Origin: Lachnospiraceae bacterium
GTDB lineage: Bacteria; Bacillota; Clostridia; Lachnospirales; Lachnospiraceae
Direction of reading: 5' to 3'
Assembly: GCA_017482205.1 (NCBI GenBank)
Contig: JAFUNK010000024.1
Coordinates: 186,001 to 250,000 of the forward strand
DNA length: 64,000 bases
Below are positions 13,518 through 42,994 of the stretch, in pieces; within the stretch, counting starts at the first letter, position 1, and every line of letters starts with the position of its first letter. The notes beneath the pieces are model-generated. The model made no database searches and had not been told where the DNA came from. It saw only the letters and a program-made list of their open reading frames with translations. A program made the translations under genes and the position numbers.

Positions 13518-14216
13518 ATGAAAGCACTGGCAGTGATTACCGCACGGGGCGGCAGTAAAAGAATTCCCCGGAAAAATATAAAAGAATTTTGCGGACAACC
13601 TATCATTACCTATTCTATCAAAGCGGCACTGGAATCCGGTGTGTTTGAAGAAGTGATGGTGTCTACCGATGATGCAGAAATTGCAGAGATTGCGAAAGGG
13701 GCAGGTGCACAGGTGCCCTTTATGCGAAGCAGTGATACTGCAAATGATTTTGCCACCACTGCAGATGTCATTGCAGAGGTTTTGGAAAGTTATAAGCAGT
13801 GTGGCAAAGAGTTTGATGCGGTTTGTTGCATTTATCCTACCGCACCTTTTGTGTCCGCTACGAAACTGAAAAATGCAATGAACCTGCTTGAGGAAAAAGA
13901 GGCGGACAGCGTGTTGCCTGTGGTGAAGTTTAGTTTTCCACCTCAGCGAAGCGTGATTATGGAAGACGGCTTTATGAAGTTTAAGTGGCCGGAGCACGCC
14001 CTGACAAGGTCTCAGGATTTAGAGCCTTTTTATCATGATGCAGGCCAGTTTTATTGTATCAAGGTAAACCGTTTTGCAGAGCAGAAAAAAATGGTCATGG
14101 AAAAGACCGTTCCCATAGAGATGCCGGAATTGGAAGTGCAGGATATTGATACCGAAGAAGACTGGCAGATTGCGGAAGTGAAGTATAAAGTGATGCAGGA
14201 AAAAGGCAGAAGCTAA
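13518..14216 (+). CDS. pseF: Pseudaminic acid cytidylyltransferase
   Basis: This enzyme activates a nonulosonic acid with CTP to give the CMP-sugar. The protein has 232 residues, the usual length. The nucleotide-binding N-terminus ITARGGSKRIPRKNIK, then VSTDDAEIAEIA, YPTAPF and DAGQFYCIK are the motifs of the NeuA/PseF family. The PFYHDAGQFY region and overall pattern fit PseF better than NeuA. It begins a four-gene cassette (13518-18107), and AAAGGGAGAGA at 13503-13513 is its ribosome binding site. The order PseF, PseI, PseG, PseC is self-consistent. Legionaminic acid is a less likely alternative product. Confidence 0.88.
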   Translation: MKALAVITARGGSKRIPRKNIKEFCGQPIITYSIKAALESGVFEEVMVSTDDAEIAEIAKGAGAQVPFMRSSDTANDFATTADVIAEVLESYKQCGKEFDAVCCIYPTAPFVSATKLKNAMNLLEEKEADSVLPVVKFSFPPQRSVIMEDGFMKFKWPEHALTRSQDLEPFYHDAGQFYCIKVNRFAEQKKMVMEKTVPIEMPELEVQDIDTEEDWQIAEVKYKVMQEKGRS

Positions 14217-14268
14217 GGCGAAGTTCCGGAATGAGAATGTTGCCTGAGGCAACAGATTGAGAGGTAGT

Positions 14269-15777
14269 ATGAAAACCATTAAAATAAAAGACCGCCTGAT
14301 TGGAGAAGGGCAACCGGCATATATTATTGCAGAAATGTCTGCCAATCATGCGGGCAGTATCGAGCGCGCCAAAGAAATTATCCGCATGGCCAAAGATTGC
14401 GGTGCGGACTGTGTGAAGATTCAGACCTATACCGCAGATACCATTACCATCGATTGTGACAACGAGTATTTCTTTATTGATAACGGTACATGGGAAGGGG
14501 AAAACCTGTATCAGCTTTACGGAAAGGCATATACCCCCTGGGAGTGGCAGAAAGAATTGAAGGAAGAAGCTGACAAAGTAGGCATTGATTTCTTTTCCAC
14601 GCCCTTTGATAGAACCGCAGTGGATTTTCTGGAAGAAATCGGGATAGAGTTTTATAAGATTGCTTCTTTTGAGTTGACGGATATTCCTTTAATCCGCTAT
14701 GTGGCAGAGAAGGGAAAGCCCATGATTCTGTCTACGGGTATGGCTTCTTATGAGGAAATTGCGGAAGCGGTGGAAACCATCCGTGCAACCGGTAACGAGC
14801 AGTTTGCACTGTTGCGTTGTGCCAGTGCCTATCCGGCTATTTCCGACGAGATGAATCTTGCTACCATGGTAGATATGCGTGAAGCATTTGATGCGCCTAC
14901 CGGACTTTCCGACCATTCTATGGGCGGGCTTGCGGCAGCAGCAGCGGTAGCCATGGGCGGCAGTATCATTGAAAAACATATTTGTATGAGCCGTGAGATT
15001 GAAAATCCCGATTCCTCTTTTTCCATGGAACCGGAAGAGTTTGCGGCAATGGTACGTGATATCCGTCAGGTGGAAAAAGCCAAAGGTTTAGTACGTTATG
15101 GTGCAACCAAGCAGGAAAAGAAAAGTTTGCAGTTCCGCCAGTCTGTGTTTGTGGTAAAAGACATTTCGGCAGGTGAAACGTTTACGGAAGAAAATATCCG
15201 GGTTATCAGACCGAGTTACGGGCTGCACCCCAGAGATTATGACCATGTACTGGGAAAGGTATGTACTGCGGATGTTAAATTCGGAACTCCACTTAAGGCA
15301 AATATGGTGGCAGATTACCTGGAGTTGAAAGAAGCAACCCCTGAGCAGACTAAGCTTACTTTTGAATGGGCCAATGATGAAGAAACCAGAAAGCAGTCCT
15401 TTACTACAGAACCTATTCCTTGGGAAACCCATGAAAAATGGTACAAGGACAGTCTGGCAGGGAATAAACGTAAATTGTTTGTAGCCTATTACGGAGAAGT
15501 ACCGGTGGGGCTGTTCCGTATAGATTTTGTGGGAGAAGAAGAGGCAGAAATCAGTTACAGTGTGGCCCGTGCTTATAGACGCAGGGGGTATGGTGCAGAA
15601 ATAATCCGTGCAGGAGAAAAACTGGTAAAGGATCGTTTCGCCGGGATAAAGACGTTGGTAGCTAAGGTGAAGCCGGAAAATGCAGCCTCCCGCAGGATTT
15701 TTACGGGTTTGGGATATGAGGAAAGTGCCTTGGAACAAGAAATACCGATGATGTTATATAAAAAGTTGACAATGTAG
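14269..15777 (+). CDS. Pseudaminic acid synthase fused to a GNAT acetyltransferase
   Basis: The protein has 502 residues, against about 345 for ordinary PseI. Residues 1-285 form the NeuB/PseI aldolase barrel that condenses a 6-deoxy-di-N-acetyl hexose with phosphoenolpyruvate. Residues about 290-345 form the SAF (antifreeze-like) domain, with FRQSVFVVKDISAGE and RPSYGLHPRD typical of PseI. From about 355 a GNAT domain follows, containing ISYSVARAYRRRGYG (the R/Q-x-x-G-x-G/A acetyl-CoA site) and VKPENAASRRIF. The pathway needs a 4-amino acetyltransferase (PseH), and no separate one is present, so this tail probably supplies that step. The start is ATG 14269 with GAGAGG upstream; a TTG at 14257 is less likely. 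Confidence 0.85.
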   Translation: MKTIKIKDRLIGEGQPAYIIAEMSANHAGSIERAKEIIRMAKDCGADCVKIQTYTADTITIDCDNEYFFIDNGTWEGENLYQLYGKAYTPWEWQKELKEEADKVGIDFFSTPFDRTAVDFLEEIGIEFYKIASFELTDIPLIRYVAEKGKPMILSTGMASYEEIAEAVETIRATGNEQFALLRCASAYPAISDEMNLATMVDMREAFDAPTGLSDHSMGGLAAAAAVAMGGSIIEKHICMSREIENPDSSFSMEPEEFAAMVRDIRQVEKAKGLVRYGATKQEKKSLQFRQSVFVVKDISAGETFTEENIRVIRPSYGLHPRDYDHVLGKVCTADVKFGTPLKANMVADYLELKEATPEQTKLTFEWANDEETRKQSFTTEPIPWETHEKWYKDSLAGNKRKLFVAYYGEVPVGLFRIDFVGEEEAEISYSVARAYRRRGYGAEIIRAGEKLVKDRFAGIKTLVAKVKPENAASRRIFTGLGYEESALEQEIPMMLYKKLTM

Positions 15778-15788
15778 GCGGAGAGACT

Positions 15789-16853
15789 ATGATTTGGATT
15801 CGGGCAGATGCCAATAAAGAAATCGGAAGCGGACATATGATGCGTTGCCTGTCAGTTGCGGCAGCGTTGGAAAAACGTGGCGAGCAGGTGCTTTTTGTAG
15901 TTGCAGATGAGGAAGCAACACAATTGTTAGCGCAACGAGAACAGGTATATCACGTGCTACATTCCGATTATCGGGATATGGAAGCAGAACTGCCAAAGCT
16001 ACGGGAACTGTTTATGCAGGAAAAGCCGGATGTGATTCTGGTGGACAGTTATTTTGCTACAAACAGGTATCTAGAACAGTTAAGTGCCTGGACGAAAACG
16101 GCTTACATGGATGATTTGTTCCGGGTTCCTTATCCGGTAGATATGGTGATAAATTATAATATTTACGGGGATTTGTTGCCTTATCAGGAACAGGCACATT
16201 CCCGGAATCAAGCGTTTCTTTTGGGATGTTCTTATGTACCCTTGCGGGAAGAGTTCCAAAATATTGCTTTACGGAAAGAAGCGGAGCAAGTGCCCCATCA
16301 TGTAAGGGAACAGGTACAAAATGTCCTGATTACCACCGGGGGTAGCGATAAATATAATCTGGCAGGGCAGATACTTGGTGCGGTTCTGGCAGAAGAAAAG
16401 ACGAAGGCATTACAGTATCATGTGGTGAGTGGTGCTTTTAACAGTCACTTACCGGAATTACAAAAGTTGGCAGCAGAGCACGAAAACGTGCACATCCACA
16501 TAAATGTGACAAATATGTCAGAATTGATACAAAGCTGTGATGTAGCAATTTCTGCGGCAGGATCTACCATGTACGAATTGTGTGCAGTGGGGGTCCCTAC
16601 ATTATGCTTCTCCTTTGTGGATAACCAGGAGAAAATGGTACAGACCTTTGTGGATAAAGGCGTGGTACATTTCGGTGGGGATTATGTAAGGGACGGCGAG
16701 GAGATGTTCGCAGGCTTGGTAACGAAACTATGTGAACTGATTTCTTCGAAGGAGTTGCGACAAACTTACAGTACAAAGGCAAGAAGTCTGGTGGACGGTA
16801 AGGGTGCTGAGAGGATTGCGGAAACTATACAAAAGATGGCAGAAGGCAATTAG
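15789..16853 (+). CDS. pseG: UDP-2,4-diacetamido-2,4,6-trideoxy-altropyranose hydrolase
   Basis: This enzyme removes UDP from the diacetamido trideoxy sugar before condensation by PseI. The protein has 354 residues with an MurG-like GT-B fold. The N-terminus RADANKEIGSGHMMRCLSVA carries the catalytic histidine of the G-x-G-H-x-x-R motif. The C-terminal half has VLITTGGSDKYN and ISAAGSTMYELCAVGVP, typical of PseG. It starts 11 bases after the PseI-GNAT fusion. Product specificity (Pse rather than another nonulosonic acid) rests on agreement with the neighbours. Confidence 0.88.
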   Translation: MIWIRADANKEIGSGHMMRCLSVAAALEKRGEQVLFVVADEEATQLLAQREQVYHVLHSDYRDMEAELPKLRELFMQEKPDVILVDSYFATNRYLEQLSAWTKTAYMDDLFRVPYPVDMVINYNIYGDLLPYQEQAHSRNQAFLLGCSYVPLREEFQNIALRKEAEQVPHHVREQVQNVLITTGGSDKYNLAGQILGAVLAEEKTKALQYHVVSGAFNSHLPELQKLAAEHENVHIHINVTNMSELIQSCDVAISAAGSTMYELCAVGVPTLCFSFVDNQEKMVQTFVDKGVVHFGGDYVRDGEEMFAGLVTKLCELISSKELRQTYSTKARSLVDGKGAERIAETIQKMAEGN

Positions 16854-16857
16854 ATAT

Positions 16858-16886
16858 TAGATAGATGATAGAGACTGTGATATACT
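16858..16886 (+). promoter_or_regulatory. Weak extended -10 promoter candidate
   Basis: A perfect TGA plus TATACT extended -10 (16878-16886) lies 17 bases after TAGATA (16858-16863), which matches the -35 consensus at four of six positions. It would give a short leader before the aminotransferase gene and could be an internal promoter of the sugar cassette. Confidence 0.4.
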
Positions 16887-16913
16887 AAAAACAGTTTGCA
16901 AGGAGAGGATAGT

Positions 16914-18107
16914 ATGCAAAAACTGGCAATTAACGGCGGTACCCCCGTCAGGGACACAAAATTATTTTACGGTCATCAATACATTGATGATGCGGATATC
17001 GCAGCAGTAGTAGATGTGTTAAAAAGCGACTACTTAACCTGCGGTCCTAAAATTACAGAATTGGAAAAACGACTGTGCGAAATTACCGGTGCAAAATACG
17101 CCGTTGCGGTAAGTAACGGGACAGCTGCACTGCATATCGCCTGCCAGGCAGCAGGAGTAAAAGAAGGGGACGAAGTGATTACCACTCCCATTACCTTTGC
17201 GGCATCTGCAAACTGTGCACTGTACTGCGGTGCAAAGCCGGTTTTTGCAGATATTAACGAGCGTACTTATAATATTGACCCTGCTTCTATTGCAGAAAAA
17301 ATGACAGAAAAGACCAAAGCGGTTGTGGCAGTGGATTTTACCGGACAGGCAGTGGAACTGGAACGTATTCAGCAGATTTGTAAAGAAAAAGGTGCAGTGC
17401 TGATTGAAGACGGTGCCCATTCCATTGGTACAAAATATAATGACAGAGGTGTCGGTTCTATTGCGGACATGACTACCTTTAGCTTCCATCCGGTAAAAAC
17501 CGTTACCGGCGGGGAAGGCGGCGCGGTCTTAACCAATAATGAAGAATACTACAAAAAACTGGTGCTTTACAGAGCCCATGGCATTACCAGAGATACTTCC
17601 CTTATGGAAAAAGAATGTGAGGGCGGCTGGTATTACGAGCAGGTTGCACTGGGTATGAATTACCGCATGACGGATATTCAGGCAGCGCTGGTAATAAGCC
17701 AGTTAGATAAACTGGAAATGTTCAGTAACCGCAGAAAAGAAATTGTAGCAAAATATAATGAGGCATTTGCAGAGATACCTGAGATTACCGTGCAGGAAGA
17801 AATTGCAGAGTCTGATACTACCAGACATTTATATATTCTGCGCATCAAACCGGAGCTTTTAAATGTGGACAGAAAAGGCTTCTATGATGCTATGGCGGCG
17901 GAAAATATCTGTTGCAATGTGCATTATATTCCGGTGTATTATCACCCCTATTATGAACATCTGGGATATAAAAAGGGACTTTGCCCCAAGGCTGAAAAGC
18001 TGTATGATGAAATGATGAGTCTGCCGTTGTATTACGGTATGACGGATAAAGATGCGGAAGACGTAATTGCAGCAGTGAAAAAGATTGTAGAGGCGTACAG
18101 AAAATAA
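16914..18107 (+). CDS. pseC: UDP-4-amino-4,6-dideoxy-N-acetyl-beta-L-altrosamine transaminase
   Basis: This is a PLP aminotransferase of the DegT/DnrJ/EryC1 family that adds the 4-amino group in pseudaminic acid synthesis. The protein has 397 residues. GDEVITTPITFAASANC, EDGAHSIG and the PLP lysine in FSFHPVKTVTGGEGG are clear. NYRMTDIQAALVISQLDKL and NVHYIPVYYHPYYEHLG match PseC. The start is ATG 16914, with AGGAGAGG at 16901-16908. Upstream in-frame codons to 16896 lack a site. Its 4-keto substrate normally comes from PseB, which is not in the window. It abuts the next gene with a one-base overlap. Confidence 0.88.
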   Translation: MQKLAINGGTPVRDTKLFYGHQYIDDADIAAVVDVLKSDYLTCGPKITELEKRLCEITGAKYAVAVSNGTAALHIACQAAGVKEGDEVITTPITFAASANCALYCGAKPVFADINERTYNIDPASIAEKMTEKTKAVVAVDFTGQAVELERIQQICKEKGAVLIEDGAHSIGTKYNDRGVGSIADMTTFSFHPVKTVTGGEGGAVLTNNEEYYKKLVLYRAHGITRDTSLMEKECEGGWYYEQVALGMNYRMTDIQAALVISQLDKLEMFSNRRKEIVAKYNEAFAEIPEITVQEEIAESDTTRHLYILRIKPELLNVDRKGFYDAMAAENICCNVHYIPVYYHPYYEHLGYKKGLCPKAEKLYDEMMSLPLYYGMTDKDAEDVIAAVKKIVEAYRK

Positions 18108-20935: not shown

Positions 20936-22042
20936 ATGAATAAAGTAGCAAGATATAATAATATTGATTTGATGAAATTTTTGGGAATGCTATTTGTTGT
21001 TATATATCATTCAACGACTGTAAAGTGTAATATATTGGACAATTCGTCCATATATACATATATAAACTACCTTGTTCGACCTATTTTATCAACTTGTGTG
21101 CCGATTTTCTTTTTTTGTAATGGATTTCTTTTGATTCAAAAGAAATTTGACTTGAAACAACACATAATAAAGATGATTAGGCTAACGTTGCTTACGGGAA
21201 TATGGGGCGTGATAGCATTATTGTTTTTGATGCCAATTAAAGGAGAATGGTTTTCTTTAAAGGAATTTATAGTATCACTGTTGACGTGGAAGCAAGGGTG
21301 GATAAATTATTTGTGGTTTATGGGAGCACTTGTATGTGTCTATATAGTGTTTCCGCTAATTAAGAGTACATTTGATTATAACAAGAATATTTTTAATTAT
21401 TGTTTAGTAATTTGTATGATATTTGTATTTGGAAATGTTCTTTTATGCATGATTGCCACGGCGGTAAAATGGTATAGAAACGGTGGGGGAGAATATGTAT
21501 CGTACAACTTTTTTAATATGTTCAATCCATTTAGAGGGATTTATGGATTTGCGTTTGCGTATTTTGGAATAGGATGCTTTTTTGGTGGAAATCAGAAGAT
21601 AATACAAGAGCGTATAAATAAGTGTAAACTGCTAAATGGCTGTTCAATAACATTTTGCTTGTTAGTGTCGGCTTTACTGTTAGGTGGATGGGGAGTGTTG
21701 AGTACAAAATGCACAGGTGAATTTTGGGATGTTGTGTGGAACGGGTATGATACTATATTTACGCTTATTAATGTCTTGGCTATTTATGTATTATGTGTGC
21801 AATATAATTATGTGGGAGGCAAATTAAATAGGTTTATACGAATTGTTTCTCAAAATACGTTGGGGATATATTTTGTACACTATATATTAATACATGTTTT
21901 CAACAAATATGGAATTAAAGAGTTGGCTTTTGCACAGAACTATCTGTTTAATGTGTTATATGCAGTGATAGTGATGGTATTAAGTTTATGTATTGTTCTA
22001 TTGCTTAAGCACATACCGATTTTTAAGAAATTGGTGATGTAG
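20936..22042 (+). CDS. Acyltransferase family 3 membrane protein
   Basis: The protein has 368 residues with about ten membrane segments. The opening RYNNIDLMKFLGMLFVVIYH carries the catalytic-type histidine of the acyltransferase-3 (OafA/YiaH) family, and CVPIFFFCNGFLL follows in the second segment. Members O-acetylate or otherwise acylate surface sugars from the membrane. The gene and the 170 bases after it are noticeably more AT-rich than the flanking genes and use many A/T-ending codons. This suggests later acquisition. The ribosome binding site AGGGGGATG precedes the ATG. The acyl donor and target are not predictable. Confidence 0.88.
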   Translation: MNKVARYNNIDLMKFLGMLFVVIYHSTTVKCNILDNSSIYTYINYLVRPILSTCVPIFFFCNGFLLIQKKFDLKQHIIKMIRLTLLTGIWGVIALLFLMPIKGEWFSLKEFIVSLLTWKQGWINYLWFMGALVCVYIVFPLIKSTFDYNKNIFNYCLVICMIFVFGNVLLCMIATAVKWYRNGGGEYVSYNFFNMFNPFRGIYGFAFAYFGIGCFFGGNQKIIQERINKCKLLNGCSITFCLLVSALLLGGWGVLSTKCTGEFWDVVWNGYDTIFTLINVLAIYVLCVQYNYVGGKLNRFIRIVSQNTLGIYFVHYILIHVFNKYGIKELAFAQNYLFNVLYAVIVMVLSLCIVLLLKHIPIFKKLVM

Positions 22043-22080: not shown

Positions 22081-22109
22081 TTGAAAGAGATACTTGTTTG
22101 TGATATGAT
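22081..22109 (+). promoter_or_regulatory. Promoter candidate for the acyl cassette
   Basis: TTGAAA (22081-22086), a 17-base spacer and TGA plus TATGAT (22104-22109) form a strong extended -10 promoter. Transcription would start near 22116, leaving a leader of about 100 bases before the FkbH-like gene. Nothing else is recognisable in the 172-base gap. Confidence 0.6.
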
Positions 22110-22214
22110 GAAATTGATATTTTGTGGTTGCTACGATGTTATATAAGATTGTGTTGCATAAGAAACAGAGAGGTTTAAAATTTTTATGTAGCATAAAATA
22201 GAGGATGAAACAAA

Positions 22215-23996
22215 ATGCGGGAACTGGAATATCCTTTTGACAGTGAATATATCTTAAAAAAGGCAAAGAGCATAAAGAAAGCCCTTCTGGCAGACGGTAG
22301 TAACCGTATGCCTAAGAAGATTGCGGTTTTGGGAGGCAGTACTACACATGATATCATCAAGGTGCTGGAGCTCTTTTTGCTGCATTACGGTATAGAGCCG
22401 TCTTTTTATGAATCTGAATATGCACAGTACTGGCAGGATGCCATGTTTGATAATGAAGAACTTTTGGCATTTGCACCGGATATTATTTATATTCATACCA
22501 GTAACCGTAACATTGTAGAGTATCCTGTGGCGGCGGATTCTGCGGCAGATGTGGAAGATTTACTGGATAAAAGCTATGAGCATTTCAGGGTTATGTGGGA
22601 CAAGTTAAGGGAAACCTATCACTGCCCCGTTATCCAAAACAATTTTGAATACCCTTATTACAGACTTTTGGGCAACAAAGAGGCCTCCGATATTCACGGA
22701 CGGATTTCTTTCTTAAACCGCTTAAATGAAAAGTTTTACGGTTATGCCAGAGAGAATGCAAATTTTTATATCAATGATATTCAATATTTGTCAGCCTGCT
22801 ACGGCTTGGATAGGTGGGGAGACCCTTTTTACTGGCATATGTATAAGTATGCCTTATGTCTGCCGGCTATTCCGGATTTAAGTTTTAATGTAGCAAACAT
22901 TATCAAGTCCATTTATGGCAAGAATAAAAAGGCGTTGGTACTGGATTTAGATAATACCCTTTGGGGCGGTATCGTAGGGGATGACGGTGTGGAAAATCTG
23001 GAAATTGGACAGGAAACCTCCATGGGACAGGTGTTCTCGGAATTCCAGACTTATATCAAACAGCAAAAAGATATTGGAATTATGTTAAATGTCAGTTCCA
23101 AAAACGAAGAAGAAAATGCACTGGCTGGCTTACAGCACCCGGACGGCACATTAAAGCCGGAGGATTTTGTTATCATCAAAGCCAACTGGGAGCCTAAGAG
23201 CAAGAATGTGGCAGATATTGCCACTGAGTTAAATATTATGCAGGATGCGTTGGTATTTGTAGATGACAATCCTGCGGAGCGGGAAATTATCCGTACCGGG
23301 TTAAACGGTGTGGCAGTGCCGGAAATCGGTAGCCCTGAACAATATATCCGCGTGCTGGATCGTTCGGGATATTTTGAAGTAACCAATCTGTCAGAGGATG
23401 ACAAAAATCGAAGCGATATGTACAAAGCAAACTTGGAACGTAAAAAGCAGCAGGAAAGCTTTGGGGACTATAAAGAGTATCTGAAATCACTGGAAATGCA
23501 AGGGACAATCAAGCCCTTTGAACCTATGTATATGGCACGCATTGCCCAGCTTACCAACAAGAGCAATCAGTTTAATCTGACTACTAAACGTTATACGCAG
23601 GCAGAGATTGAACAGGCGGCGGCAGATGATTCCGTGATTACCCTCTACGGCAAGCTGGAGGACAAGTTTGGTGATAACGGTGTGGTATCCGTAGTTATCG
23701 GGCACAAGGAAGAAAATGCGTTGCACATGGACTTATGGTTAATGAGTTGCAGAGTTTTAAAACGAGACATGGAATTTGCTATGATGGATACTTTGGTAGC
23801 TGCTTGTAAAGCGGCCGGTATCACAGAGATAAAGGGATATTATTATCCTACCGCCAAAAACAAAATGGTGGAGAAATTCTATGAATTACAGGGCTTTGCG
23901 TTAGAGTCGGCAGACGAGCAGGGAAATACGGTATGGAGATATCCGATACCGGAAAATTATGAAAATAAGAATCAGGTTATTATGGTGAATGCATAG
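22215..23996 (+). CDS. FkbH-like HAD-IIIC protein with C-terminal GNAT-like domain
   Basis: The protein has 593 residues. It has an N-terminal SGNH-like region (residues about 1-190, starting IAVLGGSTTHDI). The HAD phosphatase domain has the nucleophile motif LVLDLDNTLWGG (Asp244, Asp246), with VFVDDNPAERE as a later HAD motif. A GNAT-like C-terminus of about 150 residues contains LTNKSNQFNLTTKRY. In FkbH relatives this protein takes the three-carbon unit from 1,3-bisphosphoglycerate, removes phosphate and loads a glyceryl group onto an acyl carrier protein. An ACP gene follows directly. It heads the cassette at 22215-28154. Whether the unit is glyceryl, lactyl or another acyl here is open. 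Confidence 0.88.
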   Translation: MRELEYPFDSEYILKKAKSIKKALLADGSNRMPKKIAVLGGSTTHDIIKVLELFLLHYGIEPSFYESEYAQYWQDAMFDNEELLAFAPDIIYIHTSNRNIVEYPVAADSAADVEDLLDKSYEHFRVMWDKLRETYHCPVIQNNFEYPYYRLLGNKEASDIHGRISFLNRLNEKFYGYARENANFYINDIQYLSACYGLDRWGDPFYWHMYKYALCLPAIPDLSFNVANIIKSIYGKNKKALVLDLDNTLWGGIVGDDGVENLEIGQETSMGQVFSEFQTYIKQQKDIGIMLNVSSKNEEENALAGLQHPDGTLKPEDFVIIKANWEPKSKNVADIATELNIMQDALVFVDDNPAEREIIRTGLNGVAVPEIGSPEQYIRVLDRSGYFEVTNLSEDDKNRSDMYKANLERKKQQESFGDYKEYLKSLEMQGTIKPFEPMYMARIAQLTNKSNQFNLTTKRYTQAEIEQAAADDSVITLYGKLEDKFGDNGVVSVVIGHKEENALHMDLWLMSCRVLKRDMEFAMMDTLVAACKAAGITEIKGYYYPTAKNKMVEKFYELQGFALESADEQGNTVWRYPIPENYENKNQVIMVNA

Positions 23997-24051
23997 TTGG
24001 ATGGTTAAAAAATAAAATTGATAGCCGCATGGCGGCAGGAGGAAAATAAAA

Positions 24052-24294
24052 ATGACAAGAGAAGCACTTTATGAACGTTTAAATGCAGTATTTCAGGATG
24101 TTTTTGACGATGAAGATATTACGGTAAATGATGCAACCACCTCTGCAGATATTGAAGATTGGGATTCTTTGGAACACATCAATCTGGTATCTGCGGTAGA
24201 AAAAGAATTCGGTGTAAAATTTACCATGGGTCAGGTTGTGACCATGAAAAACGTGGGAGAAATGGTAGATATTATTTTAGCTGCCATTGGTTAA
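24052..24294 (+). CDS. Acyl carrier protein
   Basis: The protein has 80 residues, the usual ACP length. It is acidic and helical, with the phosphopantetheine site D-S-L in EDWDSLEHINL (Ser39). VEKEFGVKFTMGQV and NVGEMVDII match the last two helices. It would hold the acyl unit made by the FkbH-like protein and present it to the modification enzymes of the cassette. AGGAGGAAA upstream is a strong ribosome binding site. A D-alanine carrier (DltC) is unlikely because no DltA-type ligase is near. Confidence 0.93.
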   Translation: MTREALYERLNAVFQDVFDDEDITVNDATTSADIEDWDSLEHINLVSAVEKEFGVKFTMGQVVTMKNVGEMVDIILAAIG

Positions 24295-24299
24295 GGGCA

Positions 24300-24355
24300 G
24301 TGTGAAAAATACTTTTTCATACACAAATTTGCACTTGCACAAAGTTTGCAGGTGC
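24300..24355 (+). repeat. Two stem-loops between ACP and MBOAT genes
   Basis: TGAAAAA (24303-24309) pairs with TTTTTCA (24313-24319), extended by three outer pairs to 24300-24322. GCACTTGC (24331-24338) pairs with GCAGGTGC (24348-24355), including one G-U pair. The first stem ends in a short T-run on its 3' arm but lacks a G-C core, so it is at best a partial attenuator. Either could set the level of downstream genes relative to the abundant ACP. Confidence 0.45.
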
Positions 24356-24374
24356 CGGAAAGGCATATTTCTAG

Positions 24375-25904
24375 ATGAGTATTACTTCGTTTGCATTCCT
24401 ATGCTGTTACGCAGTGTTGCTCCTGCTATATTATGTAGTACCTAAAAAAATGCAGTGGGGTCTTTTACTTATAGCAAGCATAGGATATTTTCTGACGGCG
24501 GGGGAATTGTGGCTGATATTATACCCGATAGCCGCCATTATAATAGTATATTGCGGAGCCTTGTATATTGACAGAGTGAAAGAGCAGAAAAAGAGAAAAA
24601 CTGCCCTTTCACTTATTGTTGTTTTTTGCCTTCTTGTGTTAGCAGTGCTCAAATACTGTAATTTTGGTGTATATACATACAATGCACTGGCAAGCAAACT
24701 GCACTTCACAAGTAATTATCTAAAAGAGTTTTCTTTTCTGGTTCCGTTGGGCATCTCTTTTTATACACTTGCCCTGCTGGGATATGTGTATGATGTTTAC
24801 TATGAGATTAGTAAGCCTCAGAGGAATTTTTTAAAATTTGCATTATTTGGATTATATTTTCCGGTAATTATATCGGGACCGATAGTACGTTACCGCGATG
24901 TAGAGAACCAGTTGTATGAAAAACATACATTTGATTACAAACAGGTTACTTTTGGATTGCAGCGAATCCTATGGGGCTTTTTTAAAAAACTTGTTATAGC
25001 TGAGAGAATGGCAGTGGTTGTAAATACGGTCTATGGAGAGTATGCAGTTTATCCCGGTGTGTATATAGTGTTGGCAACCATTTGTTTTGCATTTCAGCTT
25101 TATGCAGATTTTTCCGGAGGCATAGATATAGTTATTGGTATTTCAGAGACCTTTGGTATAAAAGTCACTGAGAATTTTAATACACCGTTTTTTTCCCGCT
25201 CCATGCAGGAGTTTTGGAGAAGATGGCATATTACATTGGGCGGATGGCTGAAGGATTATTTGTTTTACCCGTTGCTTCGTACCCGTATGATTGCAGCATT
25301 ACAGGAAATGGCTAAAAATAAGTTTGGTAAAAAGGCGGGAAAGCGGATTGCTACCTATACGGCAATGTTTGTGTTGTGGTTTGCGGTGGGTATGTGGCAT
25401 GGTGGCTCTTGGAAATTTATTGTAGGCTCAGGACTTTTGCATTGGTGCTATATTGTTCTGGGAGAACTTCTGGAACCCGTATGGGACAAGTTAAGAACGT
25501 CCTTGAAGGTGAAGAAAGAAAATAAATTGTTTTGTTTCTTCCAGCAGACCAGAACCTTTTTGTTAGTTTGTAGTGGCTTTTTATTCTTTCGTTCCAATAG
25601 TCTGACTTCTGCATGTGAAATGTATAAGAGTGTATTTACAACATGGAATCCAGAAGTGTTGTGGAATGGCAGTGTACTGGCTTTGGGGTTGGATGCGGTC
25701 GAATTGACCATTGCAATAGTTTCGTTATTAATATTGCTGGTAGTATCTGTGTTACAACAAAAAAAATCTGTGCGCGAAAGACTGGCAAATAAAAATATTG
25801 TGGTTAGATGGATTGCTTTGTACGCGTTATTATTCTATGTGATTTTATTTGGATATTATGGACCCGGATATAGCGCTACGGAGTTTATTTATCAAGGATT
25901 TTAG
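24375..25904 (+). CDS. MBOAT-family O-acyltransferase (AlgI/DltB-like)
   Basis: The protein has 509 residues with about eleven membrane segments. The diagnostic MBOAT motifs are SRSMQEFWRRWHITLGGWL with LKDYLFYPL, and the invariant histidine in FAVGMWHGGSW. AlgI and DltB pass acyl groups through the membrane for attachment to extracellular polymers. Here the donor is probably the acyl-ACP made by the two preceding genes. The following SGNH-like protein is the expected outer-face partner, as AlgX/AlgJ is for AlgI and DltD is for DltB. The ribosome binding site is weak (AAGG, 11 bases before the ATG). Confidence 0.92.
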   Translation: MSITSFAFLCCYAVLLLLYYVVPKKMQWGLLLIASIGYFLTAGELWLILYPIAAIIIVYCGALYIDRVKEQKKRKTALSLIVVFCLLVLAVLKYCNFGVYTYNALASKLHFTSNYLKEFSFLVPLGISFYTLALLGYVYDVYYEISKPQRNFLKFALFGLYFPVIISGPIVRYRDVENQLYEKHTFDYKQVTFGLQRILWGFFKKLVIAERMAVVVNTVYGEYAVYPGVYIVLATICFAFQLYADFSGGIDIVIGISETFGIKVTENFNTPFFSRSMQEFWRRWHITLGGWLKDYLFYPLLRTRMIAALQEMAKNKFGKKAGKRIATYTAMFVLWFAVGMWHGGSWKFIVGSGLLHWCYIVLGELLEPVWDKLRTSLKVKKENKLFCFFQQTRTFLLVCSGFLFFRSNSLTSACEMYKSVFTTWNPEVLWNGSVLALGLDAVELTIAIVSLLILLVVSVLQQKKSVRERLANKNIVVRWIALYALLFYVILFGYYGPGYSATEFIYQGF

Positions 25905-25913
25905 GAGGCAGTC

Positions 25914-26990
25914 ATGAAGGTAAAGCAGGTCATAAAAGCAATTCTGTTTGTGATTATCTTTTTGTTTTTGCTACAATCAGTGACTTATATGCTGCGGACA
26001 AACGGTAATATTAAAGAGATTTTTGTGGGCTTTTACGCAGAACCGGAAGATACTGTTGATGTGATTTTGATTGGTTCCAGTCCGGTTTACCCTTATTATA
26101 TTGCTCCGCAAATATGGGGAGAATACGGAATTGCCTGTTATCCTCTTTCCAGTAACCAGCAACGTCCGCGTGCAGCAACGTATCTGGTAGAAGAAGCGTT
26201 AAAAACACAAACTCCGGAATTGTTTGTGTTTGAAATGCGCCAATATATATATCCGGAAAGTACTATGATGGAAAACATGGCATTTACGCGAGGTGCTACA
26301 GATAATCTCAAATATTCATGGAACCGTTTTGCGATGATTAATGATATGGTTCCGGAGGTGTCGGAACGATATACCTATTATTTTGATATTTTTAAATATC
26401 ATTCCAACTGGAAAACCATCATATTGCCTGACCAGTATACGGCTTTTTCATATGAGAGGTTACATCCTTTAAAAGGGTATACTGTTAATACCACAGTAGT
26501 GCCTTCCGAAGGAAAAGACCGGTCTGAGATAACGGAGGTAATGGAAATACCTGAAGAACAAGAAGAACAGTTGTACAGGTTGTTGGATTATGTGAAAGAA
26601 AATGAATTGAATGCGTTATTTATAGTTTCACCGATGAAGTTAGCATCCGAAGAGCAGATGAAGTTCAATTATATAAAATCCATAGTGGAGTCATATGGTT
26701 ATGATTTTGTGAATTTTAATGACTATTATGAAGAAATCGGTATCGATTTTGCTACGGACTTTTACGATGACGGGACACATACTAACACATTAGGAGCAGA
26801 GAAGTGCACGGCATTTTTTGGAGCATATCTGGATCAGAACTATGAGTTTGAGGATAAGCGGGACGATGAACGGTACGAAACATGGAATGCAGCGTATAAA
26901 TACTGGCAGACATGCAGGGAAGAGGCGTTGCAGGCTATAAATGACAAGATTGTGCGTGAGGAATATGGAGAAATTGAGGTGGCAGAATGA
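25914..26990 (+). CDS. SGNH/DltD-like membrane-anchored acyl-transfer partner
   Basis: The protein has 358 residues. A single N-terminal membrane anchor (about residues 5-25) is followed by an extracellular domain. The domain begins with VILIGSSPVYPYY, in which the serine of GSS is the likely nucleophile, and ends with FYDDGTHTNTLGAEK, the D-x-x-H block of SGNH hydrolases. This layout matches DltD and AlgJ-type partners of MBOAT proteins. It probably completes O-acylation of the glycan on the outer face. It lies nine bases after the MBOAT gene and overlaps the next gene by four bases. The assignment to SGNH is by motif only. Confidence 0.8.
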   Translation: MKVKQVIKAILFVIIFLFLLQSVTYMLRTNGNIKEIFVGFYAEPEDTVDVILIGSSPVYPYYIAPQIWGEYGIACYPLSSNQQRPRAATYLVEEALKTQTPELFVFEMRQYIYPESTMMENMAFTRGATDNLKYSWNRFAMINDMVPEVSERYTYYFDIFKYHSNWKTIILPDQYTAFSYERLHPLKGYTVNTTVVPSEGKDRSEITEVMEIPEEQEEQLYRLLDYVKENELNALFIVSPMKLASEEQMKFNYIKSIVESYGYDFVNFNDYYEEIGIDFATDFYDDGTHTNTLGAEKCTAFFGAYLDQNYEFEDKRDDERYETWNAAYKYWQTCREEALQAINDKIVREEYGEIEVAE

Positions 26991-27412
26991 ATTATTATGG
27001 TTTTGATGAAATAGTAGAGGGAATGGAAGAATCCTTTACAGTTAAGGTAACACATGAAATGATGGAAGCTTTTCTGGGGATTACGGGCGATGTAAATCCT
27101 TTGCATACAGATGTTTCGTTTGCGAAAGAAAAAGGATATGACAGTTGTGTTGTATATGGTATGCTTACCGCTTCTTTCCTTTCTACTCTGGCAGGCGTTT
27201 ATCTGCCGGGAAAAAACAGTCTCATCCATAGTGTGGAAACAAAATTTGTCAAACCGGTTTTTGAAGGGGATGTGCTGACAGTGAGCGGTAAGGTGACCGA
27301 GAAAAGAGAACTGTTTTCAGCCTTTGTGGTGAAAGTTGAAATCAGAAACCAAAATAATGAAAAGGTGTTGCGCGGTAATATGCAGATTGGAGTTATGAAA
27401 GATGGAGAATAA
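26987..27412 (+). CDS. MaoC-family (R)-specific enoyl hydratase/dehydratase
   Basis: The protein has 141 residues with a single hot-dog domain. The hydratase-2 signature GDVNPLHTDVSFA holds the catalytic Asp and His, and MLTASFLSTLAGVYLPG is typical of PhaJ-like enzymes. It would interconvert an enoyl thioester and an (R)-3-hydroxyacyl thioester. Placed between the SGNH partner and a short-chain dehydrogenase, and close to an ACP, it suggests the cassette makes or edits its own short acyl group, for example 3-hydroxybutyryl or crotonyl. That product is inference. It overlaps the SGNH gene by four bases and the SDR by eleven. Confidence 0.88.
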   Translation: MNYYGFDEIVEGMEESFTVKVTHEMMEAFLGITGDVNPLHTDVSFAKEKGYDSCVVYGMLTASFLSTLAGVYLPGKNSLIHSVETKFVKPVFEGDVLTVSGKVTEKRELFSAFVVKVEIRNQNNEKVLRGNMQIGVMKDGE

Positions 27413-28154
27413 GGTTTATCTGGTTTTGGGAGCTTCTTCAGATGTGGGCGTGGCTTTTATAAAGGGGCTGGAAGAAAAGTTAAAAAAAGCAGGAGAGCAG
27501 GCAACCGTAATTGCACATTATGCTTCCAGTGCAGTGGGGCTGGAAGCTTTGCGGGAAGAAGTGCAGGCACTGCAATTAGTGGTATTAGGGGCAGACTTTG
27601 GCAAAAGTGAAGAAATTGACAGTTTTGTGGAAAAGGTAAAAGCAGAGTGTGATTGTCCGGATTATATTGTGCATCTTCCGGCATCTAAGTTTGAATATAA
27701 CCGTATTAAGCAGTTTGACTGGCAGCAGGTTTTGCGGGAACTGGAAATACAAGTACATTCCCTGGGAGAGATTGCCAAAGCATTTATGCCGAAAATGGCA
27801 AAGAGAAAGAGCGGTAAAGTGGCAGTTATGCTCACGGCGTATACGATTGGAATGCCGCCGAAATTCATGTCCCAGTATGTGATTGCAAAATATGCACTGT
27901 TGGGACTTATGAAGAGTATGGCAATTGAATATGCGGACAAGGGAATCAATGTTAATGGTATTTCTCCAAATATGATGGAAACCAAGTTCTTGGAAAAGGT
28001 TGATGAAAAAATTGTGGGAATGACCAGAGAAAACAGTACCATGAAAAGAAATGTTAATCTGTCAGAAGTGGTGCAGGGGATTTTGTTCCTTTTGTCAGAA
28101 GGTTCCGATTATATGAATGGTGTTAATTTAAACATGACAGGCGGAGACCGGTAG
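27402..28154 (+). CDS. Short-chain dehydrogenase/reductase
   Basis: The protein has 250 residues of the FabG-like classical SDR type. The cofactor motif is LVLGASSDVGVAF (G-x-x-x-G-x-G variant), and the active site is YVIAKYALLGLMKSMA with Tyr-x3-Lys. INVNGISPNMMETKF and MNGVNLNMTGG are typical of 3-ketoacyl-ACP reductases. With the overlapping MaoC gene it forms a reductase/hydratase pair on a thioester-bound acyl chain. The first glycine motif is slightly unusual (SSDVG instead of SRGIG). It is the last gene of the cassette, and no terminator follows. Confidence 0.88.
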   Translation: MENKVYLVLGASSDVGVAFIKGLEEKLKKAGEQATVIAHYASSAVGLEALREEVQALQLVVLGADFGKSEEIDSFVEKVKAECDCPDYIVHLPASKFEYNRIKQFDWQQVLRELEIQVHSLGEIAKAFMPKMAKRKSGKVAVMLTAYTIGMPPKFMSQYVIAKYALLGLMKSMAIEYADKGINVNGISPNMMETKFLEKVDEKIVGMTRENSTMKRNVNLSEVVQGILFLLSEGSDYMNGVNLNMTGGDR

Positions 28155-40677: not shown

Positions 40678-40735
40678 CAATGGTGTCATGTTGTGTAATG
40701 CATTGCATGCGACTGATAAGAAAGGGAGCAACAAT

Positions 40736-42994
40736 ATGAGTGAACCTATCAGAGTCCTCCATGTATTAGGGGGCCTAAGTTTGGGCGGTGCGGAAAGCCG
40801 CATTATGGACTTGTACCGCAATATTAACAGGGAAGAATTGCAGTTTGATTTTTTGGTGCATTCCGCCAAAGAAGAACATTTTGATAAAGAAATTTTAGCT
40901 TTGGGAGGGAATGTGTATCGCATTCCCCGTTTTAAAATCTACAACTGGTTTCATTACAAAAAAGCTCTAAAGCATTTTTTTGCAGAACACAAAGAGTTCA
41001 GGGCAGTGCACGGACATATGACCAGTACGGCCTCTATTTATTTGCCGATAGCCAAAAAAGCAGGGGTGCCCATTACCCTTGCACATGCCAGAAGCGCAGG
41101 CGTACCCGGCGGGTTAAAGGGAATTTTGACAAAGTGGCTCAGAAGTTCCTTAAAGAAAAAAACAGATTATTGTCTGGCGTGCTCCAAAGAAGCCGGAGAG
41201 GCCGTGTTTGGAAAAAAATGGTCTGATAAAGGCAGGGTAGAAGTAATACCCAATGCGATTGCTGCAAAGAAATATGTTTATGACGAGAGTATCAGAAATG
41301 CAATGCGGGCGGAGCTGGGCGTAGAAGACAAATTGGTTATCGGTCATGTGGGTAGCTTTAGAGAGCCTAAGAATCATGTGTTCCTGATACAGATATTTGC
41401 AGAAATTTATAAAAAAAGACCGGATGCGGTACTTCTTCTTTTGGGAGAAGGGGCACTGATGGAACAGATAAAGAAGCAGGTGGAAGATGTCGGACTGAAG
41501 GACGTTGTAAAATTCTTGGGTAATCAGGGAAATGTAAGTCCGTATTATCAGGCGATGGATTATCTGGTATTTCCATCCCTGTTTGAAGGCCTGCCGGGGA
41601 CGGTTGTGGAGGCACAAACAGCAGGGCTTCGTTGTCTGATTTCAGATACCATTACCAAAGAAGTGCAGATAACAGAACTGGTAGAAAGTTATAGCCTGGA
41701 CAGGTCTGCCACGGAGTGGGCAGAACAGGTTCTGTCCCATTGTGGATATGAACGGGAAAGCCGGCTTAGTGATGTGGAAAAAGCCGGGTTTGATATTGGT
41801 GCACAGATAGAGAGATACAAGGAAATCTATCGTAAAAATGTATTGCTGATGGTGCCGCTTCTGCATCAGGGCGGATTTGAGCGTATCTGTGCCATGACAG
41901 CACATCTGATTAAAGATATGTGCAATGTGAGGATTGCAGTCTTTAGTTCGAAGAATATGTTTTATGATGTAACCGGGCTGGAGGTCATAGACTTAAATCT
42001 GGGAAGTACGCCGGGAATAGTGGGGAAGGTGCTCAATGTTTTTAAAAGAAGAGTACGTGTCCGTAAATTGAAGAGAGAGAAGAACATTCATATCACATAC
42101 AGTTTCGGTATGACTGCCAACTTGGTGAATTCTATTTCAAAAGTAAATGATGAAATATGGATTGGTATCCGTAGTTATGGTGATTTGGAAAATAAAAAGC
42201 AGATGAAGCTTTTTTGCAAGAATGCAGACAGGGTGATTTGTTGTACTAAGGTAATGAAAGACGAACTGGCAGAGATGTATCATCCAAAACAGGTGGATAT
42301 CCTGTACAATCCCTGTGATACCCAGAAGATAAAGTTACTGGCAGCAGAAGCTGTTTGTAAAGAACATGAAGACTTTTTCGCTGATGGCGGACAGGTGATT
42401 GCTTCTATGAGCCGTGAGGATGATGTAAAGGGGTTCTGGCATTTGATTAAGGCATTTTCACTGGTAAAGAAAGAACTGCCTGCCGCGAAACTGATGATAG
42501 TAGGAGACGGTACTTTTATAGAGTATAAGAAATTGGCAGAGGACCTTGGTATACAGGAGAGTGTTTTATTTACTGGAGTGCAGAAAAATCCGTTTTCTTA
42601 TTTACACAAAGTATCTTTATACATTATGACTTCTGTACTGGAAGGGTTCCCTAATGCATTGGTAGAAGCAATGGCGGTGGGAGTACCGGTTATGTCGGTA
42701 AACTGTAAAACCGGACCTGCGGAAATTTTCGTGGAAGAGTATAAAAAAGCTGATGACCAGCACGCGGTATATGAAGGGGAGTACGGAGTATTATTGCCGG
42801 TTATCAATCCGGTGAAAAATCTGAATGCCGGGGAGATTGAGGAAGAAGAAAAAATAATGGCAGAACAAGCTTTGCGGATATTGCAGGATAAAGATAAAAT
42901 TGATGCAATGAAGGAGGCTGCGGCAAAGAGAAGTGAAGTATATTCTGTAGCCAGCTATTTGAAGCAGGTGACAGACTGGATAAACCAAGCGTAG
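40736..42994 (+). CDS. Double GT4 glycosyltransferase
   Basis: The protein has 752 residues, two complete GT-B glycosyltransferase modules in one chain. Module 1 (about 1-365) starts RVLHVLGGLSLGGAESRIMD and has FPSLFEGLPGTVVEAQTAG. Module 2 (about 370-752) starts LLMVPLLHQGGFERICAM and has MTSVLEGFPNALVEAMAVG. Both keep the E-x7-E motif, so both could be active. It probably adds two successive sugars. The start is ATG 40736 with GGGAG at 40724-40728; in-frame codons back to 40688 lack a site. It is the last gene before the terminator at 43000. A fusion of two once-separate genes is the simplest origin. Confidence 0.88.
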   Translation: MSEPIRVLHVLGGLSLGGAESRIMDLYRNINREELQFDFLVHSAKEEHFDKEILALGGNVYRIPRFKIYNWFHYKKALKHFFAEHKEFRAVHGHMTSTASIYLPIAKKAGVPITLAHARSAGVPGGLKGILTKWLRSSLKKKTDYCLACSKEAGEAVFGKKWSDKGRVEVIPNAIAAKKYVYDESIRNAMRAELGVEDKLVIGHVGSFREPKNHVFLIQIFAEIYKKRPDAVLLLLGEGALMEQIKKQVEDVGLKDVVKFLGNQGNVSPYYQAMDYLVFPSLFEGLPGTVVEAQTAGLRCLISDTITKEVQITELVESYSLDRSATEWAEQVLSHCGYERESRLSDVEKAGFDIGAQIERYKEIYRKNVLLMVPLLHQGGFERICAMTAHLIKDMCNVRIAVFSSKNMFYDVTGLEVIDLNLGSTPGIVGKVLNVFKRRVRVRKLKREKNIHITYSFGMTANLVNSISKVNDEIWIGIRSYGDLENKKQMKLFCKNADRVICCTKVMKDELAEMYHPKQVDILYNPCDTQKIKLLAAEAVCKEHEDFFADGGQVIASMSREDDVKGFWHLIKAFSLVKKELPAAKLMIVGDGTFIEYKKLAEDLGIQESVLFTGVQKNPFSYLHKVSLYIMTSVLEGFPNALVEAMAVGVPVMSVNCKTGPAEIFVEEYKKADDQHAVYEGEYGVLLPVINPVKNLNAGEIEEEEKIMAEQALRILQDKDKIDAMKEAAAKRSEVYSVASYLKQVTDWINQA

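Follow-up and report, generated by a model that had tools for sequence, protein, structure and literature searches.

A candidate variant form of MBOAT-SGNH acylation of glycans, supplied by an FkbH-loaded acyl carrier protein, in a Lachnospiraceae polysaccharide locus

Introduction

Which acyl group do six neighboring genes in a Lachnospiraceae genome build, and where does it go? The window analyzed here is the whole 64,000-nucleotide stretch of contig JAFUNK010000024.1 (assembly GCA_017482205.1, positions 186,001 to 250,000). An earlier note on this DNA picked out a cassette of six genes encoding an FkbH-like loader, an acyl carrier protein (ACP), an MBOAT acyltransferase, an SGNH-like partner, a MaoC-type dehydratase, and an SDR reductase; open reading frame (ORF) calls and family matches, all on the + strand, confirm these genes, their coordinates, and their names (Table 1). 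The note took them for a self-contained set that makes a short hydroxyacyl group on ACP and exports it to glycan. ACP-linked acyl decoration remains the likely theme, the fixed and self-contained set does not survive, and for the hydroxyacyl group, which was left open, we now propose lactyl.

Our preferred reading, to which we assign a probability of roughly 0.47, is that the cassette builds a three-carbon (C3) acyl group, most likely lactyl, on an ACP dedicated to it, and that this group is exported and joined by an ester bond to the surface polysaccharide of the locus. FkbH would take the glyceryl group of 1,3-bisphosphoglycerate, strip the phosphate, and load holo-ACP through a Cys512 thioester. 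MaoC would then eliminate the 3-hydroxyl of glyceryl-ACP to give an enol that becomes pyruvyl-ACP, and the SDR would reduce the 2-keto group, yielding lactyl-ACP. At the outer face, the DltB-like MBOAT would transfer lactyl to its own Tyr506 in the sequence FIYQGF, and the SGNH protein would accept it on Ser56 and esterify a sugar hydroxyl. Since the acyl phosphate from glycolysis comes already activated, the route could do without an ATP-using ligase. Lactyl-ACP, as the hydroxy counterpart of D-alanyl-DltC, would fit a DltB-like MBOAT. Glyceryl and lactyl are both among the exopolysaccharide substituents given in the accessible text of PMC4432689.

Results

The loader module

FkbH scored 291.7 bits against TIGR01686, about twice the cut-off of 146.65, and also matched PF21211; its sole solved relative was 3slr (E 3.5e-53). 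Residues D244, D246, and C512 were identical in all 85 aligned rows (among which one protein may be counted more than once), and C512 was the only cysteine conserved at 95% or more. On these sequence grounds, the acyl-enzyme thioester may form on Cys512. The ACP scored 26.4 bits against PF00550 (cut-off 20.8), the D[ST][LMI] motif was present in 76 of 83 distinct ACP relatives, and a gene for a 4'-phosphopantetheinyl transferase follows the SDR in one related locus (L106). FkbH domains load glyceryl from 1,3-bisphosphoglycerate onto carrier domains, according to the available part of a vioprolide study (PMC8949500). The cassette thus shares the pairing of FkbH with a carrier protein with polyketide and peptide pathways, as far as the accessible texts on vioprolide and on tetronates (a reference within PMC4552970) describe them, but no polyketide synthase or peptide synthetase was found among the scanned window proteins, and the product is predicted for a surface glycan.

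Three modules and the VOC swap

We surveyed 295 genomes of the order with SGNH, FkbH, MaoC, and SDR each used as query and scanned named genomes with a profile of the SDR subfamily. The scan kept 80 loci of 210 confirmed relatives, of which 74 (L072-L145) are counted here; the six of L146-L151, at 26-29% identity, were left out. Some of the 74 duplicate contigs of the order survey (L090 is L016, L129 is L055, and L137 is L043). The hidden Markov models for the parts were built from loci of this analysis, with thresholds of our own choosing.

Among the 74 SDR loci, MaoC lay within 1 kb in 69, and within 10 kb we found ACP in 59, FkbH in 54, MBOAT in 33, and the SGNH subfamily in 18, counts that are lowered because several contigs are short. 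The earlier note had proposed searching other genomes for co-occurrence of the six genes, and all five partners do stand within 10 kb of the SDR in 15 of the 74. MaoC-SDR accompanied FkbH-ACP without MBOAT or SGNH in 21 (some on short contigs), and FkbH-ACP-MBOAT-SGNH occurred without MaoC-SDR in L013, L015, L017, and L020. These are the separated arrangements that the note itself had named as contrary to a fixed six-gene set; we reject that unit, as MaoC-SDR and MBOAT-SGNH each occur apart. A better reading is three modules: an FkbH and ACP loader, a swappable MaoC and SDR tailoring pair, and a swappable outlet, here MBOAT and SGNH.

The SGNH-query loci closest to the window carry ACP, FkbH, MBOAT, and SGNH with or without MaoC-SDR (L013, L015, L016, L017, and L020), and three near ones hold parts of the set only (L012, L014, and L019). 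More distant SGNH relatives were MBOAT-SGNH pairs, in which the window ACP and FkbH queries gave no match. At positions 7662-10595 of L019, ACP, MBOAT, and SGNH were 70%, 49%, and 49% identical to those of the window and sat, by eye, between addAB-like helicase/nuclease and amylomaltase-like genes; FkbH was not found in the 20 kb of this locus, the FkbH of that genome being on another contig.

Because many loci were fetched by their SDR, our sample of 84 FkbH proteins is biased; less biased are 31 loci of the order, drawn from the 33 best long FkbH matches (at least 41% identity; two not fetched, and a partial 47% match left out). Within 8 kb, these held ACP in 26, MBOAT in 16, SGNH in 9, VOC in 9, and MaoC with SDR in 8. 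FkbH-ACP-MaoC-SDR appeared as successive labeled ORFs (same strand, gaps of at most 1.2 kb) in 30 of the 74 SDR loci and in eight phyla: Bacillota (12), Pseudomonadota (9, including Enterovibrio, Vibrio, Nitrosomonas, Rubrivivax, and Propionivibrio), Spirochaetota (3), Campylobacterota (2), and once each Acidobacteriota, Myxococcota, Bacteroidota, and Omnitrophota. One Elusimicrobiota and one Woesearchaeota contig carried a rearranged set; single odd phylum placements could be binning errors because many of the genomes are metagenome bins. A quick tree of the 84 FkbH proteins, drawn with no shuffle control, required at least 19 changes for the presence of MaoC and 9 for that of MBOAT, which suggests that both were repeatedly gained and lost; contig ends add to the change count.

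The most direct view of a swap comes from L015 and L016, whose flanks are 88.6% (1,567 bp) and 89.8% (11,541 bp) identical in DNA. Between ACP and a glycosyltransferase gene, L015 has a VOC gene and L016 has MaoC-SDR, with FkbH, ACP, MBOAT, and SGNH kept in both. The best curated model for the VOC protein was methylmalonyl-CoA epimerase (58 of 115 bits, under the cut-off). Because such an epimerase acts at the alpha carbon of an acyl thioester, VOC and MaoC-SDR would process the same FkbH product on ACP, and we read them as alternative cartridges for it. Mutual exclusion of MaoC and VOC is weak: both together occurred in none of the 31 FkbH loci and singly in 8 and 9 (p 0.04), and in the larger set, 2 of 84 had both (L121 and L127, the latter with a doubtful VOC match in a 370-amino-acid ORF). 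The gene content, the motifs with their exceptions, the conserved co-location, and the replacement of MaoC-SDR by VOC are direct observations. In the Butyrivibrio-type cassettes, the stretch from ACP to FkbH is bordered by two asparagine-synthetase-like genes, recognized by Pfam in L016 and L017 and by sequence likeness in L015 and L020.

A probable VOC-type version of the core cassette lies on pSymB of Sinorhizobium meliloti (L159, 5510-11389), where VOC, an MBOAT ending in FLYQGF, a 409-amino-acid protein, ACP, and FkbH stand in that order. The annotation of the 409-residue protein as a TonB-dependent receptor looks wrong: it carries a GGST motif and a C-terminal DPGH. It had no Pfam match and no meaningful BLAST similarity to the window SGNH protein, so an SGNH role, suggested by its position and these short motifs, is a guess.

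In L043 (7251-9037), L055, and L138, FkbH and ACP are separated by the N and C halves of a transketolase, which in L105 come after FkbH; these halves possibly perform a C2-transfer step on the ACP-bound acyl group. They bear on an explanation in which FkbH loads another phosphorylated C3 or C4 acid, or C2 transfer extends the product, so that the group is neither glyceryl nor lactyl. We regard this as highly unlikely for the window: the transketolase N half is near 5 of the 84 FkbH proteins and none was found in the window, and the DxD and Cys motifs of FkbH are identical throughout.

The tailoring pair

The MaoC protein scored 65 bits against PF01575, and D35 and H40, the catalytic Asp and His, were invariant in 11 of 11 aligned rows; its closest solved relatives were 3-hydroxyacyl-thioester dehydratase 2 and (R)-specific enoyl-CoA hydratases. 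The SDR scored 113 bits against PF13561, and its closest relatives were FabG; the best NCBIfam model was YmfI, at 109 bits under its cut-off of 238. Y159 and K163 were invariant in 12 of 12 aligned rows, and the N-terminal GASSDVG is present.

Within the order, MaoC matches (E at most 1e-25) were found in 15 of 295 genomes, with FkbH within 10 kb of 10 of the 15 (window included). SDR matches (E at most 1e-40) were found in 13 genomes, again with the window included, and all 13 adjoin a MaoC match; a fourteenth adjacent pair, with a weaker SDR match, is in G051. FkbH (E at most 1e-20) was present in all 14 genomes with an adjacent MaoC-SDR pair versus 49 of 295 overall (p 2e-12, ignoring kinship), the FkbH proteins of G188 and G241 being only 37% and 30% identical. 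The MaoC match and FkbH are on different contigs in G249, and one genome (G121) has a MaoC match without an SDR match and without FkbH. On a Candidatus Eremiobacterota contig (L144, 9278-10432), MaoC and SDR are fused in one 384-amino-acid protein directly before FkbH.

A hydratase and a FabG-type reductase are the textbook pair for 3-hydroxyacyl thioesters. ACP might accordingly be shared by two acyl supplies, glyceryl from FkbH and 3-hydroxybutyryl-ACP or -CoA made by MaoC and SDR from crotonyl or acetoacetyl thioesters, both exportable. The kinship of MaoC to (R)-specific enoyl-CoA hydratases and dehydratases and of the SDR to FabG speaks for this explanation. FkbH is also missing within 10 kb of ACP-MaoC-SDR in 8 of the 74 loci and of a lone MaoC-SDR pair in 7 others (several on short contigs). 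Another locus, L133 (4969-11030), which counts against lactyl as well, has a 34% SDR relative together with an AMP-binding ligase, a hexapeptide protein, and ACP, with MaoC and FkbH absent within 10 kb; the SDR can thus go with another loader. ACP and FabG-type reductases are also held by the flagellin glycosylation islands of Enterobacteriaceae and Aeromonas, as the available parts of PMC4875605 and PMC7874193 describe them. However, the six genes include no condensing enzyme or acyl ligase, FkbH is in all 14 genomes with the adjacent pair and absent from the lone-MaoC genome, and the VOC swap fits alternative processing of a single FkbH product better. We therefore consider two supplies quite unlikely and retain lactyl as the favored product.

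Beside these loci, a Niveispirillum plasmid (L157, 8785-13265) has FkbH, ACP, and a WcbI-type acetyltransferase followed by a protein annotated as SDR with a weak MaoC-like N-terminal part (29 bits); the SDR profile does not match this protein.

The outlet module

The MBOAT protein passes PF03062 and scored 161 bits against the DltB model TIGR04091, under its cut-off of 375. Its only solved relatives were the DltB structures 8jem (E 7.7e-23) and 6bug (E 2.3e-22), with which the RWH and WHG motifs align. Across 45 MBOATs near ACP or FkbH, WHG was present in 44 and R.WH in 29. The window protein ends in the shuttle hexapeptide FIYQGF; the pattern F[IVLM]Y..F was found in 38 of the 45, and Y..F was kept in 6 of the 7 misses (44 of 45). 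According to the accessible text of PMC12148441, the Tyr of this hexapeptide is the acyl shuttle of MBOAT-SGNH pairs, which work in two modes: in the Dlt mode, a carrier protein acts with DltX as a separate peptide, and in the PatA mode, acyl-CoA is used and the hexapeptide is at the MBOAT C terminus. The window MBOAT combines the PatA-like FIYQGF with the Dlt-like adjoining carrier protein. That it uses ACP is suggested by the gene neighborhood.

The SGNH-like protein passes no Pfam cut-off and matches GDSL_2 at E 0.014; the same model was detected (E at most 1) in 6 of 17 family members, with a best value of 1.9e-5. G54, D282, H289, and N291 were invariant in the 17 aligned relatives, and residue 56 was Cys in 2 of them. 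In 17 of 20 loci fetched by SGNH, an MBOAT lay within about 150 bp of the SGNH relative. We tentatively assign the protein to SGNH because of its GxS, the conserved Asp and His, the weak GDSL_2 matches in 6 of 17, and its place beside the MBOAT. A distant relative (G084:C195) matches the window SGNH protein (E 5.9e-27), and its C-terminal end also matches DltD (E 4.2e-4, under the cut-off of that model). In another genome (L014, 8362-10542), a 50% identical SGNH relative follows an apparent GT4-type glycosyltransferase, judged by eye, within one 726-amino-acid ORF.

These features set the cassette beside Dlt, with which it shares a C3 acyl donor (predicted for the cassette) bound to a carrier protein, a DltB-related MBOAT, and an SGNH-type partner. 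Unlike Dlt, it has FkbH in place of the ATP-using ligase DltA, its MBOAT falls under the DltB cut-off, its SGNH partner is not DltD by Pfam, and its shuttle hexapeptide is inside the MBOAT rather than in a separate DltX. An AMP-binding domain, as in DltA, was absent from the 20 window proteins scanned with Pfam, the cassette included (DltA was not searched for genome-wide), and DltD (PF04914) had no match in the SGNH-like protein or in the genome of the window, which is 74% complete; of 96 genomes searched in the order, one had a match above the cut-off of this model. A Dlt system is thus rejected, as the earlier note had held for lack of a Dlt ligase: no DltA lies beside the cassette, and both MBOAT and SGNH fail the Dlt models. 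The O-acetylation systems PatA/PatB and AlgI/AlgJ/AlgX also resemble the cassette in having an MBOAT with a C-terminal FIYxxF-type motif and a separate SGNH-type protein, but the cassette differs in having ACP and a loader as conserved neighbors. According to the available text of PMC12148441, acetyl-CoA is the donor for PatA, and pathways of this type are described as working without a carrier protein; the acyl donor of AlgI is called unidentified in that of PMC4432689.

Other candidate outlets appear where neighbors were scanned. In Pseudobutyrivibrio (L091), the gene after ACP-MaoC-SDR encodes a PglD-like hexapeptide protein; in Propionivibrio (L089), a hexapeptide protein comes after the SDR; and in L045, a GNAT protein stands beside ACP. 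Because of these, the same acyl-ACP is probably usable for cytoplasmic acylation too.

Genomic surroundings

The cassette is part of a long co-directional surface-polysaccharide locus (Table 1). Long ORFs that do not overlap any longer ORF run on the + strand throughout the window, from 78 to 62879, and so neither the "self-contained" cassette nor its single promoter is supported. A promoter-like site is present at 22081-22109, and such sites numbered 48 between 18000 and 31000 versus 41.8 ± 7.7 in shuffles; a special promoter upstream of the cassette is rejected, the site being no better than chance. Overlapping ends, described earlier as several, occur at two of the five junctions (SGNH/MaoC by 4 bp and MaoC/SDR by 11 bp), and the remaining gaps are, in order, 55, 80, and 9 bp.

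Table 1. Features of the window, in window positions.
Feature	Position	Strand	Matches and remarks
FkbH-like HAD-IIIC loader, 593 aa	22215-23996	+	TIGR01686, PF21211
Acyl carrier protein (ACP), 80 aa	24052-24294	+	PF00550; DSL phosphopantetheine site
MBOAT acyltransferase, DltB-related, 509 aa	24375-25904	+	PF03062; C-terminal FIYQGF (Tyr506)
SGNH-like acyltransferase partner, 358 aa	25914-26990	+	GxS at 54-56; weak GDSL_2
MaoC / R-specific enoyl hydratase-type dehydratase, 141 aa	26987-27412	+	PF01575
SDR reductase, FabG/YmfI-like, 250 aa; proposed keto-acyl-ACP reductase	27402-28154	+	PF13561/PF00106
Pseudaminic-acid genes PseF, PseI-GNAT fusion, PseG, PseC	13518-18107	+	TIGR03584, TIGR03586, TIGR03590, TIGR03588 above cut-off
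AT3-family acyltransferase	20936-22042	+	PF01757, 100 bits; directly upstream of cassette

Around the cassette are a PglK-like ABC transporter and glycosyltransferases, and downstream of it are a PglF/PseB-like dehydratase and sugar-nucleotide genes. By context, the AT3 acyltransferase immediately upstream is an independent O-acylation route. A 768-amino-acid ORF at 40688-42994 contains two tandem GT4-type glycosyltransferase regions. The pseudaminic acid synthase gene (14257-15777) encodes a C-terminal GNAT domain, which probably supplies the missing PseH function. Pseudaminic acid is a possible acceptor sugar for the acyl group.

The pseudaminic-acid genes, 4-9 kb upstream of the cassette, raise an alternative: cytoplasmic synthesis of an acyl group that ends up as an amide on pseudaminic acid or another amino sugar, with MBOAT-SGNH as an ordinary neighboring O-acetyltransferase of the acetyl-CoA type. 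In two loci of the genus of the window (L067 and L069), a different FkbH (32-34%) lies between PseF and PseI/PseG, along with a small, weakly ACP-like ORF (24% and 19%). The hexapeptide proteins that follow ACP-MaoC-SDR in L091 and the SDR in L089 would suit such an amide, as would the fkbH-domain gene cj1302 in the flagellar glycosylation locus of C. jejuni, noted in the available part of PMC7099621. Against it, PseI of the window is already fused to a GNAT domain, neither a hexapeptide protein nor a GNAT protein stands free in the cassette, FkbH and MBOAT directly flank ACP, 16 of the 31 FkbH loci of the order have an MBOAT no farther than 8 kb away, and L019 retains ACP-MBOAT-SGNH with no FkbH found in its 20 kb. 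On balance, we judge the amide unlikely and favor an exported ester.

Flagellin glycosylation islands (Enterobacteriaceae, Aeromonas, and C. jejuni cj1302) are comparable in assembling acyl groups on a carrier protein, those of Aeromonas and C. jejuni beside Pse genes, but the accessible texts name no MBOAT-SGNH outlet for them. In the same texts, the islands of PMC4875605 and PMC7874193 have LuxE, CaiC, or an AMP-dependent synthetase, and cj1302 is the FkbH.

Discussion

Several points weigh against lactyl on ACP. MaoC relatives of this type are known for the hydration of trans-2-enoyl thioesters to 3-hydroxyacyl ones and are not known to act on glyceryl. The SDR has Thr145-Ala146 at the usual Ser site, and its usual Asn site holds no Asn and is not conserved. 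For three genomes (Pseudobutyrivibrio plus one with that genus code), 60-171 kb of the same contig separate ACP-MaoC-SDR from the nearest FkbH, and among the 31 FkbH loci, 4 have MBOAT and MaoC-SDR together and 4 have no partner. The closest solved relatives of VOC, 3hdp and 2qh0, are deposited as glyoxalase I and lactoylglutathione lyase (E about 1e-37), with methylmalonyl-CoA epimerase next (7.8e-9). The shuttle hexapeptide was found in 11 of 12 MBOATs away from ACP and FkbH and, being equally common there, marks the MBOAT class and is therefore no argument for ACP use. PDB searches with the SGNH-like protein gave nothing better than E 0.55 (sequence) and 0.1 (profile), which is chance level. 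A precedent would be the loading module of the bryostatin synthase, which we take to use the same FkbH, dehydratase, and ketoreductase set for a lactyl starter; literature searches, in which broader listings were covered in part, found no text on this route. Finally, what each enzyme acts on, which way MaoC and SDR run, that the MBOAT draws on ACP, and what accepts the acyl group are all inferred here.

Our verdict is that the cassette is real and modular, and we class it as a probable variant form of MBOAT-SGNH acylation of glycans, supplied by an ACP that FkbH loads. Its parts are individually known, and the combination and the VOC swap are, as far as could be seen, undescribed: the open-access literature searched, with top matches considered for broad queries and subscription papers mostly outside it, gave no description of MBOAT-SGNH acylation fed by FkbH-ACP. 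Papers listed there for FkbH together with MBOAT were on cyanobacterial peptides, and none were found on glyceryl transfer to gellan or on an S. meliloti MBOAT with ACP.

More broadly, and only tentatively, the modules may represent a general glycan decoration in which FkbH moves a glycolytic acyl phosphate to a carrier, exchangeable cartridges tailor it, and MBOAT-SGNH exports the ester; we hold this generalization possible but doubtful. MaoC-SDR would then lead to lactyl, VOC probably to L-glyceryl, and transketolase or other enzymes to additional groups. Such a route would parallel D-alanylation without depending on ATP and would extend from Lachnospiraceae to Spirochaetota and Sinorhizobium, with lactylation or glycerylation of the surface tied to glycolytic flux.

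If the proposal is correct, the chemistry of the surface polymer would be coupled directly to central glycolysis, with neither ligase nor ATP, and glyceryl- and lactyl-type polysaccharide substituents would gain a genetic basis. A carrier-fed MBOAT with its own shuttle peptide would join features that neither of the two mechanisms described in the accessible text of PMC12148441 combines. With the related set on S. meliloti pSymB, a tractable plant symbiont is available for testing the idea, and the swap of tailoring genes predicts the acyl group of each strain.

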